DNA from: Thermosynechococcaceae cyanobacterium Okahandja
Lineage (GTDB): Bacteria > Cyanobacteriota > Cyanobacteriia > Thermosynechococcales > Thermosynechococcaceae
DNA: 64,000 nucleotides
NCBI GenBank assembly: GCA_041530395.1
Contig: CP136945.1
Coordinates: 2,294,001-2,358,000, forward strand
Direction of reading: 5' to 3'
Under the pieces are notes generated by a model that was not told the origin of the DNA, ran no database searches, and saw only the letters and a list, made by a program, of their open reading frames with translations. This document shows positions 11,599-18,049 of this stretch, one piece after another; the first letter of the stretch is position 1, and every line of letters starts with the position of its first letter. Both the position numbers and the translations under genes were made by a program.

Positions 11599-12105
11599 AT
11601 GATGAGTGAGGCAGCGACCCAGTCGGAACTGAGTTTGGTGTTGGCGGAAGTGCGAGCCATGCGGGCTGAAATTCAGTCCATGGATAAAAAGCTCGACATC
11701 CATATTGCCACGACGAACGAGAAGTTCAACACGGTTGAGGAGAAGTTTAACAAGGTCGAGGAGAAGTTGAATGCTGTTCGTACGGAGCTAAAAACCGAGA
11801 TTCAGTCTGTACGAACCGAGTTAAAGACCGAAATTCAGTCTGTGCGTACGGAGCTAAAAACTGAGATTCAGTCTGTACGAACGGAGTTAAAGACCGAAAT
11901 TCAGTCTGTGCGCACCGAGTTGACAACGGAAATTCAAGCTGTGCGTACCGAGTTGACAACGGAAATTCAGACTTTAGATGAAAAAGTTTCTGACCTGAGC
12001 GATCGCCAAAAAGTGGTGGATTCGCGTCTGTGGGGTTTTATTGTTGCCTTGGTGGGGGCAATTGTCGCCTATCTGGTGAAGCTCTCGTTCTTCGATAAGG
12101 TATAG
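11599..12105 (+). CDS. Coiled-coil membrane protein with 11-residue repeats
   Basis: 168 residues. The N-terminal 60 are heptad-like and charged; residues 60-125 are six tandem copies of VRTELKTEIQS or close variants; the C-terminus has one transmembrane segment (LWGFIVALVGAIVAYLVKLSF). An 11-residue period is expected to form a right-handed coiled coil. It resembles the DUF1640/coiled-coil adaptor class in layout, but I cannot assign a function. The adjacent recJ begins 22 bases later on the same strand. Met 11602 is an equally good start. Confidence 0.7.
   Translation: MMSEAATQSELSLVLAEVRAMRAEIQSMDKKLDIHIATTNEKFNTVEEKFNKVEEKLNAVRTELKTEIQSVRTELKTEIQSVRTELKTEIQSVRTELKTEIQSVRTELTTEIQAVRTELTTEIQTLDEKVSDLSDRQKVVDSRLWGFIVALVGAIVAYLVKLSFFDKV
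11776..11973 (+). repeat. Six tandem 33-bp in-frame repeats
   Basis: Units begin at 11776, 11809, 11842, 11875, 11908 and 11941, each 33 bp with no spacer. At DNA level units 1 and 3 are near-identical, as are 2 and 4, and 5 with 6, suggesting duplication of a 66-bp dimer followed by a single-unit duplication. The repeats encode 11-residue coiled-coil blocks, so copy-number change keeps the frame. Confidence 0.9.
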
Positions 12106-12127: not shown

Positions 12128-14440
12128 ATGGCTCTTCCCCCGCAGCGTTGGCAGCTACCGCCAGTTGACTCTGCCCAATGCGAGGCGTTAAGGCGTGCGT
12201 TGGGGTGCGATCGCCCCCTCGCGGAGATTTATATGCGCCGCGGCCTGACAACCCCAGCAGCGGTGAAAGGGTTTTTAGAGCCGGAAACCCTTGATCTACC
12301 ACCCCCGAGTACGGTGTTTCCAGATTTGGCCTTGGCGGTGGAATTATTGCGCCAAGCGATCGCCCGCGCTGAAAAGATAACCATCTGCGGTGATTACGAT
12401 GCCGATGGCATGACCAGTACGGCGCTTTTGTTGCGAGCACTACGCCATCTGGGGGGGCGGGTTGACTATGATATTCCCTCACGGATGCACGAAGGCTACG
12501 GCATCAATGAGCGCATTGTTGACGAGTGCCATCAACAGGGAGTGAAGGTTATTCTGACAGTGGATAATGGCATTGCCGCCGTGCAGCCCATTGCCAAAGC
12601 GCGGGAACTGGGCTTAATCGTCATTGTGACGGATCACCACGACATCCCGCCCCAACTGCCGCCCGCCCATGCCATTCTTAACCCGAAGCTGGTGGCTGCC
12701 GACTCCCCCTACCACGCCCTAGCTGGGGTGGGTATGGCCTACACCTTGGCCCTATCCCTAGCCCAACGGTTAGGAAACCTCAGTGGGCTGGTGCGTCCCC
12801 TGCGGGAGTTGTGTACCCTAGGCACCATTGCTGACTTGGCACCCCTGACGGGGGTGAATCGCCGCTGGGTCAAGCAGGGGCTACAGACCTTGCCTACGTC
12901 GTCTTTGGTGGGGGTGAGGGCGCTCATGCAGGTTTCTGATAGCGTGCCCCAGACCCATACGGCTCTTAAGCCCAGTGCCGTTGGTTTCCGCCTAGGCCCG
13001 CGCATTAATGCAATGGGACGCATTGGCGATCCGCAGGTGGTGATTGAGTTACTGACAACAGAGGATGCCAGTAGGGCAGCCGCCTTAGCCGCAATCTGCG
13101 AAGAGACCAACCGCCGGCGGCAAGAGTTGTGTGCGGCCATTGAAGCGGCGGCGATCGCCCAGTTGGAGGCACAAGGTTTTGATCCGGTAGCGGAGTGGGT
13201 GCTGGTGATAGTGCAACCCGATTGGCACCATGGGGTCATTGGCATTGTGGCCTCGCGCTTAGTGGAACGCTACGGCATACCCGTCTTCATTGGCACCTAC
13301 GAAAATGAGACAACCATTCGCGGCTCTGCCCGTGGGATTCCCGAGTTCAACGTCTTTGCGGCGCTAGAGGCCACCCAATCCCTACTCCTGAAGTATGGCG
13401 GCCACCATGCGGCGGGTGGGTTCACGTTGCGGGCTGAGCATTTGGACCTGTGGCGCGATCGCCTGCGGCAGTTTGCCCGAGCCTGCCTGCGGCCAGAGCA
13501 CCTACGCCCGCTTGTCCAGCTTGATGCCGAAATTGGTTTTGAGCAACTCACGTGGCATTTTTATGAGCAGGTGGAGCGCTTGCAACCCTTTGGCACCGAG
13601 AATCCTCAGCCCGTTTTTTGCAGTCGCGGCGTGCGGGTGCTGAGCCAATCGCCGATGGGGAAAGAGAGCAATCACTTGAAGCTCACCTTACAGCAAGACA
13701 ACAGCCCACCCATCACAGCAAAGGTATGGCGTTGGTCGGGGGCACCGCTGCCTGCCGAGGTCGATATTGCCTATACGCTTGTTGCCCATACGTGGCAGGG
13801 GCAAACCACCTTAGAGCTAGAGCTACAGGGCATCCAACCCAGCCGTCCCGCACCCTTGGCGTGGTCGTGCCCTGAGCCGCCCCCCCACCCCAGTCCCCGC
13901 TGGCAGCCCCTAGGGGTAGATTGGCCGTCGCGACTTCAGGGGAGGGTTCTACTCTACGGCTACAATCGCCCCTACATTGTCCCTAGTACCACAGCAGCCA
14001 CGATTGACTACGATCGCCCCCACCGCCGTTGTCAGCAGCTTATCCTCTGGTCGCTGCCCCCCTCGTGGACTCATCTGCGCTGGCTACTGGCGATCGCCCA
14101 GCCCACGATTGTCTATGTGGGGTCTGCCGCACCCCCTCTGCCTAGGGAATCGGATCTAGTGGCTACCGTCGCAGCGGCGGTTAAGGGGACGACCACCCTC
14201 AATCTTTTAGCCCTCAGCCAAACCTACTGGATTGCCCCTTGCACCCTCGTTGCTGTTTTGCGTCACCTTGGCTATGGTTGTGATGGCTTCGCCCCGACCC
14301 TCAGCATTGCCGAGGAGCTTGAGCGACTCCAGCGATGGTATCGTTTACAAGCCACCCACTTGGCGCGTTTCTGCTCGCCCTCCGCCGTGGGCGGCAATGG
14401 GCCACACCCGCCAGCGGGGCAGCCCCCTGGTTGTCGTTGA
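12128..14440 (+). CDS. recJ: Single-stranded-DNA exonuclease RecJ, paralog 1
   Basis: 770 residues. DHH domain: CGDYDADGMTST near residue 90 and TDHHDIP near 170 carry the Mn2+-binding aspartates and histidines; a later PRINAMGR block and the DHHA1 motif GGHHAAGGF near residue 425 complete the core. The C-terminal 200 residues form an extra domain common in cyanobacterial RecJ. RecJ degrades ssDNA 5' to 3' in recombination and mismatch repair. A second, divergent RecJ lies 1.4 kb away on the other strand. The next gene starts about 20 bases after this stop. Confidence 0.92.
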   Translation: MALPPQRWQLPPVDSAQCEALRRALGCDRPLAEIYMRRGLTTPAAVKGFLEPETLDLPPPSTVFPDLALAVELLRQAIARAEKITICGDYDADGMTSTALLLRALRHLGGRVDYDIPSRMHEGYGINERIVDECHQQGVKVILTVDNGIAAVQPIAKARELGLIVIVTDHHDIPPQLPPAHAILNPKLVAADSPYHALAGVGMAYTLALSLAQRLGNLSGLVRPLRELCTLGTIADLAPLTGVNRRWVKQGLQTLPTSSLVGVRALMQVSDSVPQTHTALKPSAVGFRLGPRINAMGRIGDPQVVIELLTTEDASRAAALAAICEETNRRRQELCAAIEAAAIAQLEAQGFDPVAEWVLVIVQPDWHHGVIGIVASRLVERYGIPVFIGTYENETTIRGSARGIPEFNVFAALEATQSLLLKYGGHHAAGGFTLRAEHLDLWRDRLRQFARACLRPEHLRPLVQLDAEIGFEQLTWHFYEQVERLQPFGTENPQPVFCSRGVRVLSQSPMGKESNHLKLTLQQDNSPPITAKVWRWSGAPLPAEVDIAYTLVAHTWQGQTTLELELQGIQPSRPAPLAWSCPEPPPHPSPRWQPLGVDWPSRLQGRVLLYGYNRPYIVPSTTAATIDYDRPHRRCQQLILWSLPPSWTHLRWLLAIAQPTIVYVGSAAPPLPRESDLVATVAAAVKGTTTLNLLALSQTYWIAPCTLVAVLRHLGYGCDGFAPTLSIAEELERLQRWYRLQATHLARFCSPSAVGGNGPHPPAGQPPGCR

Positions 14441-14459: not shown

Positions 14460-15833
14460 GTGGATATTTCCCGTTTGCGATCCCAATGGCAGCAAATTAG
14501 TGGTGATGAAACCCGGGAAGCGGTTATTGACCATCACTTTATTCTCCCCCTGCTGACGCTCCTTGGTTTTGGCGAGAGCGATCGCCTCTCCTCCTTTGAC
14601 ACCGGCAGCGGCATTGCTGATGTTGCGGCGCGCTTTCCGACCAAGGATTGCCCCCCCTTTGCCCAAGAGCGGCTGCACCCCGATCTAATTGTGGAACTGA
14701 AGGCACCCGCCCGCCGTTCCCGCAATACCCCCACTCAAACGGTGACCCTCAGCCTTGAGGATGGCTCGGCCCATCAAGCCCGCGCCTTGAGTCAACTGCG
14801 CCAACTGTTGGCGGGGGAACACTGCCGCCACACTAGGTGGGGGCTGATCACCAATGCGCGCCATTTGCAACTGTTTCAGCGCCATGGGCATTTGGTCTAT
14901 CCCGCTACCCCCAATTTTGAGATCAGTGGCGATCGCCTCGAAGCCATTGTCCAAGAACTGCGCGCTTGCCTTGAATGTCCACCGCGCTGCACTACCGTGT
15001 GTATCTATAACCATAAAGGCGGCGTAGGTAAAACAACGACCACCATTAACTTGGGTGCCACCCTTGCCGTTGCCGATCAAGCGGTTCTACTGGTGGACTG
15101 CGACCCCCAAGGGGATCTCAGCCGCTCCCTCGAGATTGCGCCAACCGCCACGACCCTAGCCAATTGCCTGCAAGAGCCAAGCCTACCCATCAGCGCCGCC
15201 ATTCGCCCCTTTGATCTGCGGCTGCGCAGTGGCAACTCGATTAAATCGGCTCATATTTTTGATGTGATTCCCGCAACCCCCCACCTGCAAAGTATTCTGA
15301 TTCAGGCAATGCAGACCGGTACCCCCGCCATTACCCGGCTGCGGGAGGTCCTACAAGGGGTGCGCGATCGCTACGACTATATTTTGCTGGACTGCCCCAG
15401 CGCGTGGTTGTTTTTAAGCAAGAGCGCCGTCTATGCCAGTGATGTGGTACTTATTCCCACACGGCATACGGATTTATCCTCGCTGAATAATGCCGCCCAA
15501 GTGATTCACAGTTTTATCTTTGGTGAGATTCACACCTTCCGCCGTGAAGGCGGCCCATTACCCTTGCCGATCTTTTTTAACGGCGCGCCTACCACCGATA
15601 AAGCCATGGCCGTTGCCACCGCCGAAATCGAGCAAATTTTACAAAAGTTTTCCCATCTCACTCCCTACTTTTGGCCGCACTATCAGACCAATGACACAAC
15701 GGTGTTTGCTATTCCCGAATACGCCATTATTTCTCGGGCCGCCTTTGCACGGGTACCTGCCGTTTTCAAAGATAAGCGGGTGTTAGGCTTTTATCAGAAC
15801 CTTGTCCAAACCTACTTTTATCCCTTGGCATAA
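14460..15833 (+). CDS. PD-(D/E)XK nuclease-like domain fused to ParA ATPase
   Basis: About 457 residues from GTG 14460 (20 bases after recJ; the frame is open back into recJ, so the start is inferred). Residues 1-150 resemble the N-terminal domain of type I restriction HsdR: HPDLIVELKAP has Asp75, Glu79 and Lys81 in PD-X3-ELK order. Residues from about 178 are a ParA/Soj ATPase: deviant Walker A KGGVGKTTTT (Lys186), then VDCDPQGDLSRSL and DYILLDCPS. No parB partner is adjacent. Sits between two convergent RecJ genes and overlaps the second by 16 bases at the 3' end. Function unknown; DNA positioning, repair or defence are possible. Confidence 0.78.
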   Translation: MDISRLRSQWQQISGDETREAVIDHHFILPLLTLLGFGESDRLSSFDTGSGIADVAARFPTKDCPPFAQERLHPDLIVELKAPARRSRNTPTQTVTLSLEDGSAHQARALSQLRQLLAGEHCRHTRWGLITNARHLQLFQRHGHLVYPATPNFEISGDRLEAIVQELRACLECPPRCTTVCIYNHKGGVGKTTTTINLGATLAVADQAVLLVDCDPQGDLSRSLEIAPTATTLANCLQEPSLPISAAIRPFDLRLRSGNSIKSAHIFDVIPATPHLQSILIQAMQTGTPAITRLREVLQGVRDRYDYILLDCPSAWLFLSKSAVYASDVVLIPTRHTDLSSLNNAAQVIHSFIFGEIHTFRREGGPLPLPIFFNGAPTTDKAMAVATAEIEQILQKFSHLTPYFWPHYQTNDTTVFAIPEYAIISRAAFARVPAVFKDKRVLGFYQNLVQTYFYPLA

Positions 15834-18049
15834 TTTTCTAAGCACTGCACGGGAGCCGTGGCAAAGTAGCGGCGACGAAACTGCTGCTCAGCGATCGCCC
15901 CCAGAAATCGCTCGAGCGCCGCGGTAGTCTCTGGGGTGGGGCAGGTTTGGGGAGGCCAACGGCAGTGCAAGGTGTGGTCTTGCTCCTGTACCTCAACTCC
16001 TAGGGTTTTGAACACCTCGATCGCTAGCCCGAGGCACACCTCATCTAAGGCTAGGGTCGTTAAAAGTTGATGCCGCTGTAGGGGATGTTGGCGCTGACTG
16101 GCGTCCTTAAACTGGGCGACAAGGCTCTGCCACAGGGACAAGGGATCCGACTCCGCTGGCGTAGTGTAGGTCAAAATCAAAGGCTGTTGCTGCGCTTGGG
16201 CGCGATCCACCCAGCATTGCCATTCTGCTGCCGAGGTGGGGCACCGATCCACCCGTAGGCCGGTCGGGGGAGCCGCCGCCGGGCAATTCCGAAAATCCTC
16301 AATCAATTTAATAGGGGCATGTGTCAGAATTGTGCTGGCACTCGGTTGGAGAGCTACAACGTTGGCGGTGACCCTGCCTTGCCATTCCTGTAACTCCAGT
16401 ACCACATCACAGCGGCCTGTTGAGCAATCGCTCACCTGATGCTGCCACCACTTGGCCGGAAAGCAAGTTCCCGTCTGGGGTTCGACCAAGTCGAAGGTGG
16501 TGTAGGGCAGAGAGTTGTTTTTACTGCGGTTGTCCCTCAGATTTTTCAGGTGTACCTGACGCACCAATAGCCGCGGTTGTGGGTTGCCCAACCCAAACGG
16601 CTCCAGTAGTTTTAGTTCCCTGAAGAGGGACATTCCCAAGTCCGCCAGTTGGACCTCTAGATCAATGGCCAACGGCTGCGCGATCGCCGTCGCCGTCCCC
16701 TGTTGCTGGAGCAGATAATCGTTGAGTGCCGCCTCGAGGACTGGAATATCCGTTATTTTCAGGCGCACTCCCGCCGCGTAGGGGTGGCCGCCAAACTGCA
16801 CAAACAGGTGTTGCTGGCTGCGCAGTGCCTCGTAAAGATCCACCGTTCCCTCGGAGCGGGCCGATCCGGCAGCCATGCCCGTGGCCGGATCGGTGTGCAG
16901 TAAAATTGCCGGACGACCATAGGTGCTGACTAACTCATTAGCGACAATCCCCAGAACTCCCGCCGCCCAGTTGTTGTCCGTGAGGACAATCACCCGCGCC
17001 GTCGAGAGATCCAATTGCGCGACCTTTTGATGCGCCTCGTTGGCGATCGCCGTTTGCAGTTGCCGCCGACTATCATTTGAGTCCTCAACAGCTTTGGCAA
17101 TTTTCTTAGCTTTTGCCGGATCATGGGTGGTCAGCAGATGGATGAGGCGGGTTACATTCCCCACAACTCGACTCACCGCATTCAGGCGCGGTGCTAAACC
17201 AAAACTAATATCGGTAAACTGCTGCCCCTTGCGCCGACAGTTGTCTAGGAGCGCCTTTAGCCCGGGTCGTCGCGTATTCGCGAGCGCCTCTAGCCCCCGC
17301 TGGGCTAAATACCGCGCTTCGGCACGCAACTCGACCAGATCGGCAATGAGGCCAACTACCACCAAGTCCAGTAGCAACTCCAGAGGCGGTGCGGTCTGCT
17401 GTGGCCACGTTTCATAGACGGCTTCCACAAACTTATAGGCCACGGCAACCCCCGATAAGGAACGGAAGGGATGGGAGCTTGGCAACTGCCGTGGGTTAAT
17501 CAGCGCCACCGCCCCCAAGGAGTCAGGGGCAAGGGTATGGTGGTCAGTCACAATGACATCTATACCAAGCTCGCGGGCAAGGGCAATTTCTGGGTGATTC
17601 GTGCAGCCCGTATCGCAGGTGATGATCAACGAGACCCCCTTCTGGGCAAGCTGTTGTAAACCCTTTTCCGAAAGACCGTGCCCCTCCTGCAACCGATTGG
17701 GAATATAAAAGCCGACGAGGTGCTCCCCTAAAAACGGATGCAACCCCTCCCATAGGACGGCGGTAGCGGTCACGCCATCGGCATCAAAATCACCCCAGAT
17801 GGCCACTTTCTCCTGTTGCGCGATCGCCTGCTGTAGCCGTGCCATGGCCGCAGACATTTCTGGAAAGTCAAAGGGAGAGCTTGGACAGTACTGGTGCCAA
17901 TCTAAAAAGGCGGCCACCTCGCGAATCCCGCGCTGCCACAGCAGTTGTGCCGTAAATTGCCCTGCCGCCGGGTGCAGCGCCTTCACCTCGCCCACAAAGT
18001 CCGCTGGCGCTGGCGTTGCCCTTGGCTGCTGCCAAACAACCCGCGCCAT
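15818..18049 (-). CDS. RecJ-family exonuclease, paralog 2
   Basis: 743 residues. DHH-domain motifs WGDFDADGVTAT (about residue 86) and VTDHHTL are intact, as is the DHHA1-type FGGHPYAAGVRL. The protein has its own cyanobacterial C-terminal extension, with LLTTLALDEVCLGLAIEVFKT cut here as LALDEVCLGLAIEVF resembling the tail of paralog 1. Catalytic residues look complete, so it is likely an active ssDNA or nanoRNA-type phosphodiesterase; which of the two genes is the main RecJ is unclear. It starts three bases after the stop of the hybrid kinase gene, so they are probably one transcript. Confidence 0.88.
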   Translation of the reverse strand: MARVVWQQPRATPAPADFVGEVKALHPAAGQFTAQLLWQRGIREVAAFLDWHQYCPSSPFDFPEMSAAMARLQQAIAQQEKVAIWGDFDADGVTATAVLWEGLHPFLGEHLVGFYIPNRLQEGHGLSEKGLQQLAQKGVSLIITCDTGCTNHPEIALARELGIDVIVTDHHTLAPDSLGAVALINPRQLPSSHPFRSLSGVAVAYKFVEAVYETWPQQTAPPLELLLDLVVVGLIADLVELRAEARYLAQRGLEALANTRRPGLKALLDNCRRKGQQFTDISFGLAPRLNAVSRVVGNVTRLIHLLTTHDPAKAKKIAKAVEDSNDSRRQLQTAIANEAHQKVAQLDLSTARVIVLTDNNWAAGVLGIVANELVSTYGRPAILLHTDPATGMAAGSARSEGTVDLYEALRSQQHLFVQFGGHPYAAGVRLKITDIPVLEAALNDYLLQQQGTATAIAQPLAIDLEVQLADLGMSLFRELKLLEPFGLGNPQPRLLVRQVHLKNLRDNRSKNNSLPYTTFDLVEPQTGTCFPAKWWQHQVSDCSTGRCDVVLELQEWQGRVTANVVALQPSASTILTHAPIKLIEDFRNCPAAAPPTGLRVDRCPTSAAEWQCWVDRAQAQQQPLILTYTTPAESDPLSLWQSLVAQFKDASQRQHPLQRHQLLTTLALDEVCLGLAIEVFKTLGVEVQEQDHTLHCRWPPQTCPTPETTAALERFLGAIAEQQFRRRYFATAPVQCLENYAKG

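Follow-up and report, generated by a model that had tools for sequence, protein, structure and literature searches.

What would a ParA ATPase do with a nuclease-like domain of its own? ParA ATPases act as switches that position DNA or protein cargo, and the question is raised by one gene in a 64,000-nucleotide stretch of the genome of Thermosynechococcaceae cyanobacterium Okahandja (contig CP136945.1, positions 2,294,001 to 2,358,000; the window). In the open literature covered, which includes no preprints and only part of the subscription-journal papers, we found no description of the fusion or of its pairing with the partner protein described below. The domains are familiar one by one; what appears to be new is their combination with the partner, which is of the ParA/ParB kind and possibly a new system.

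Results

A nuclease-like domain and a ParA ATPase in one open frame

The fusion gene lies on the forward strand at positions 14460-15833, where a single open frame encodes 457 amino acids with P-D-L-I-V-E-L-K at residues 74-81 and KGGVGKTT at residues 186-193. Residues 1-172 (14460-14975) make up the N-terminal domain and residues 176-457 (14985-15830) the ParA domain, joined in the one frame as the original prediction had it. The GTG at 14460 is the likely start codon, because genus relatives use TTG at the homologous codon, and an upstream start would merely lengthen the N-terminus of the fusion; the nuclease-like domain is therefore not excluded by the choice of start. A start codon that cuts off this domain, which had been raised as a possible objection to the prediction, was ruled out by the same comparison.

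The ATPase was complete, as had been predicted. Residues 176-457 matched Pfam AAA_31 (2e-30), the deviant Walker A motif KGGVGKTT (15015-15038) contains the signature Lys186, and the ParA domain of the predicted structure matched Helicobacter pylori Soj (6iub_A) with a Z score of 31.1 and an rmsd of 2.7 over 257 aligned residues. When the whole fusion model was used in a structure search, the match lists were filled by the ParA domain, and the McdA structures 6nop and 6non were among the best matches. McdA, the cyanobacterial ParA that positions carboxysomes, shares the ParA fold with the fusion but has no nuclease domain; its partner is McdB, whereas that of the fusion is ParB-like. The likeness to ParA/Soj extends to the deviant Walker A motif, the fold and, in relatives, an operon with a ParB-fold partner; however, where the fusion has its nuclease domain, ParA/Soj proteins have no extension or a helix-turn-helix.

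The gene starts 19 bp downstream of recJ (12128-14440, forward strand; TIGR00644, 3e-143), and a second, convergent recJ-type gene (15818-18049, reverse strand; TIGR00644, 1e-140) overlaps its stop region. Positions 11599-12105 (forward strand) encode a coiled-coil protein of 168 aa, in which an 11-aa repeat (SVRTELKTEIQ) recurs almost perfectly and the C-terminal segment resembles a membrane helix.

The N-terminal domain carries a conserved PD-(D/E)XK-type site

Relatives were gathered by whole-genome searches and profiles (an initial scan using only the window protein gave no match), and conservation was counted over 148 proteins, of which 107 are non-redundant clade-1 fusions and 41 belong to sister clades. 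Glu20, the acidic residue of helix 1 (14517-14519), was found in 147 of the 148, with a gap in one row, and Asp54, the conserved metal-binding Asp (14619-14621), in 145; in the ExK motif Glu79-Leu-Lys81 (14694-14702), Glu79 was kept in 148/148 and Lys81 in 147/148. Gln112 (14793-14795), a motif IV-like Gln in helix 2, was present in 105 of the 107 clade-1 fusions; elsewhere the position holds Arg, Lys or Gln, with Arg or Lys in most fusions outside clade 1. The catalytic trio first proposed was Asp75, Glu79 and Lys81. Its Glu and Lys stood, but residue 75 (14682-14684) was Asp in only 12 of the 148 proteins, against 145 for Asp54, and Asp75 was rejected as the catalytic residue; its column reads Tyr 66, Asp 12, Phe 9 and His 8 in clade 1, and Asp was absent from the other clades. 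As judged from the alignment, the conserved catalytic site is Glu20-Asp54-Glu79-x-Lys81, with Gln112 in the close clade. The four residues were 98-100% kept in sequences sharing as little as 20-40% identity, and such conservation across 148 divergent proteins ruled out a chance motif.

The Pfam family HSDR_N_2 matched 29 of 35 relatives (best 1.1e-7), with scores above the gathering threshold of 25 bits for L188 (33.2), L203 (32.6) and L095 (25.8); residues 1-172 of the window protein alone had no Pfam match. The predicted fusion model (mean pLDDT 91.1, pTM 0.91) showed a helix at residues 20-34, strands at 42-47, 52-57 and 76-80, a helix at 104-117 and a strand at 127-131, which is the alpha-beta-beta-beta-alpha-beta core order of PD-(D/E)XK enzymes; helix 1 contains Glu20 and helix 2 Gln112, and Asp54 falls in strand 2 and Glu79 and Lys81 lie at strand 3. 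A three-clade profile had a single PDB match, the restriction enzyme BpuSI at E = 0.017, in which the D, ExK, Q and TN positions line up; this is a hint to the identity of the domain and not proof. Sequence and model together support the original assignment of the N-terminal domain to the PD-(D/E)XK nuclease superfamily, HSDR_N type, and we infer that it has nuclease activity and, as first suggested, may be positioned by the ParA domain.

With the N-terminal domain of HsdR (HSDR_N/HSDR_N_2), the domain shares the PD-(D/E)XK core order, the E..D..ExK..Q site and a 'GxxTNg' strand motif. Unlike type I restriction HsdR, however, the fusion comes without an SF2 helicase motor, HsdM and HsdS, and its ATPase is a ParA; Pfam detected no helicase domain in it, and HsdM and HsdS were not among its recurring neighbours. 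PADLOC profiles gave only weak matches in the ATPase part of the window protein (PDC-M28B, 6.6e-6) and none in the N-terminal domain.

We considered whether the domain could be a non-cleaving, DNA-binding remnant of the PD-(D/E)XK fold. Degenerate members do exist: at L047:6838-8217 (reverse strand), Asp54 is changed to Gly and Lys81 to Thr, with the Walker A motif intact and a partner-sized ORF downstream. The near-complete retention of Glu20, Asp54, Glu79 and Lys81 in so divergent a set nevertheless makes such a remnant very unlikely. A 588-aa fusion from Xenococcus (L158:5581-7347, forward strand) has an extra N-terminal helical segment that reads as TerB-like, by eye only.

Relatives encode a ParB-fold partner directly downstream

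The original prediction also stated that no parB is adjacent. This is correct for the window, where the flanking genes are of recJ type, but misleading for the family. A check of the neighbourhood across cyanobacteria showed that in 93 of the 107 non-redundant clade-1 loci an ORF of 150 aa or more lies no further than 60 nt downstream of the fusion, overlapping it by 4 nt in 61 cases, and that this gene encodes a protein of the ParB_N fold; three further clade-1 loci run off the contig edge downstream of the fusion. A right-sized downstream ORF was also present for 37 of the 41 clade-2 and clade-3 fusions, and 36 of these 37 matched the profile of the clade-1 partner N-domain above inclusion (97.6% in the profile-profile comparison by hhalign). 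No neighbour of the fusion other than the partner recurred in relatives.

The partner matched the Pfam families ParB_N in 55 of 56 members (E up to 0.05) and Rho_N in 47 of 56. In its predicted structure (pLDDT 92.6), residues 9-102 matched ParB-CDP with a Z score of 12.4, and residues 189-227 matched SAP/Rho-type domains (FAN1, Rho), the tail aligning with the SAP domain of FAN1 at Z 5.0 and 37% identity over 38 residues; the middle segment gave a weak ComEA-like match (Z 7.1). The full module is thus two genes, one for the fusion and one for a ParB-fold protein whose C-terminal DNA-binding tail is of SAP/Rho_N type or, in some cases, helix-hairpin-helix-like, and we are practically certain of the fusion anatomy together with its operon pairing. 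In clade 3 (L203, L208, L223 and others), the tail of the partner reads, by eye only, as a helix-hairpin-helix ('GLGDKTMxKIIDYW') instead of SAP.

The partner shares the ParB_N fold with ParB, Noc, PadC and KorB (Z 10-12) but is without the GERR CTP motif of ParB, having by inspection GN[SH]F in its consensus at that place. A basic N-terminal tail is absent from the partner consensus as well, and the central parS-binding helix-turn-helix of the ParB family gives way to the ComEA-like segment and the SAP/Rho_N tail.

The module is mostly chromosomal and rare on plasmids

The clade-1 N-domain was detected at E < 1e-3 in 45 of 386 cyanobacterial genomes, and related fusions at E < 1e-30 in 59 of the 386, where part of the matches are confined to the ATPase. 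A search through 84,980 species returned 111 relatives; among the 80 listed, all were cyanobacterial save one, a MAG labelled Tatlockia and possibly contaminated. In several Microcystis genomes the module sits in the same chromosomal context. By these searches, the fusion family is common in cyanobacteria, occurs in several clades and is mostly chromosomal. A phage origin was rejected, since the N-domain had no match in 50,697 phage records and a single IMG/VR contig matched.

Among 72,556 plasmids, two carried a clade-1 fusion, both from Nostoc sp. UHCC 0870, and both also bear a ParM/StbA partition gene. Partial homologues of the partner were seen on plasmids NZ_CP112875, NZ_AP014639, NZ_CP091923 and NZ_AP017567, which had no match in the fusion search.

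These data bear on ParABS-type partition or positioning, in which the fusion would be the ParA and its partner the ParB, and the nuclease-like domain, placed where type Ia ParA proteins bear a helix-turn-helix, would serve centromere handling, resolution or autoregulation. The close structural match to Soj, the ParB-fold partner in the same operon and the two Nostoc plasmids speak for this reading. However, no centromere- or parS-like repeats near the operon were shared among eight flanks, the partner lacks both the CTP motif and the basic tail, and the nuclease site is strictly conserved. Plasmid partition as the general role was rejected on the plasmid count, and classical plasmid partition is less likely because the fusion is rare on plasmids, shared repeats were not seen and both carriers have ParM/StbA. 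The window copy, moreover, differs from ParA/Soj systems in having no partner. Overall, we consider partition in this broad sense rather unlikely, though to be taken seriously.

The window copy is best read as a retained orphan

None of the five genomes of the window family (0/5) has an adjacent partner, and a partner profile search of these five genomes found no clade-1 partner. In a quick tree, the window fusion grouped with the other four family fusions inside the partner-bearing clade (SH-aLRT 99-100), so that the simplest history is one partner loss. The frame was intact and the active site kept in all five orphan genes, and dN/dS, estimated from close pairs, was about 0.15-0.2 for the N-domain and in most cases lower for the ParA domain, with dS near saturation for pairs that include the window gene. 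The best reading of these sequences is that the window protein is a retained orphan under purifying selection. A decaying, functionless relic would also be without its partner, as all five genomes are, but the intact frames and sites, together with dN/dS values far below 1 for either domain, make a relic highly improbable.

In the three remaining genomes of the genus, genes that read as rpsB and tsf adjoin the fusion, and the recJ genes stand well apart from each other; the fusion gene has therefore moved. A functional link between the fusion and recJ was rejected, since these three species lack the adjacency.

The genome of the window contains a second, complete module of a different clade (L002:874-3179; G000:C1:1349540-1351845), in which a gap of 53 nt separates a 506-aa fusion (G000:C1:1349540-1351060) from a downstream ParB_N and SAP protein of 243 aa. 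It is probable that the window copy either acts by itself or uses a borrowed partner, such as that of this paralogous module. The clade-2 fusion is kept in each of the four genomes of the genus, but none was detected in G280 of the sister genus, and borrowing the clade-2 partner therefore cannot be the whole story.

The chromosomal setting also invites a housekeeping reading, that is, chromosome processing or repair such as the resolution of branched DNA or the trimming of multi-copy chromosomes, with the ParA domain keeping the nuclease on the nucleoid. The mostly chromosomal location, the partner tail that resembles the SAP domain of FAN1, the position of the window gene behind recJ, the purifying selection on the orphan and the constant context in Microcystis all fit it. 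Against it, the fusion is confined to roughly one genome in eight and the recJ linkage does not hold within the genus; we regard a housekeeping role as unlikely.

Discussion

We propose that the fusion and its partner form an ATP-switched, partner-targeted DNA nuclease module. This reading is suggested by the combination of a strictly conserved nuclease site, a DNA-dependent ATP switch and a DNA-binding ParB-fold partner. ATP-bound ParA would dimerise on DNA and so pair two PD-(D/E)XK domains. The partner, sitting on particular DNA or a DNA structure, would mark the site of action of the dimer and trigger ATP turnover, and the nuclease would then cut or nick the DNA marked in this way, which would most likely be foreign or competing. 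Dimer-gated cleavage, targeting by the partner and the role are all inferred, and we give the proposal as a whole a chance that falls slightly short of even.

With regard to the role, the patchy occurrence of the clade-1 domain (45 of 386 genomes) and the differing chromosomal sites within one genus lead us to favour a mobile accessory function against foreign or competing DNA. An association with defence islands was rejected: the flanks of the fusion showed no excess of PADLOC families over matched control regions (48 vs 72, with 145 proteins in each set, which makes this a weak test). No methyltransferase or other self-marking gene was conserved near the fusion in relatives. We put forward only tentatively the fuller proposition of an undescribed two-protein system, found in several cyanobacterial clades, in which a ParA switch controls a nuclease and a ParB-fold/SAP protein directs it against foreign or competing DNA.

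Annotations given to the genes of the module include 'ParA family protein' and 'Rho termination factor N-terminal domain-containing protein'. If a ParA protein carries a nuclease and works with a ParB-like partner from the same operon, its positioning switch would be coupled to DNA cutting; many sequenced cyanobacteria would then already contain a new module for DNA handling or defence that can be put to the test.
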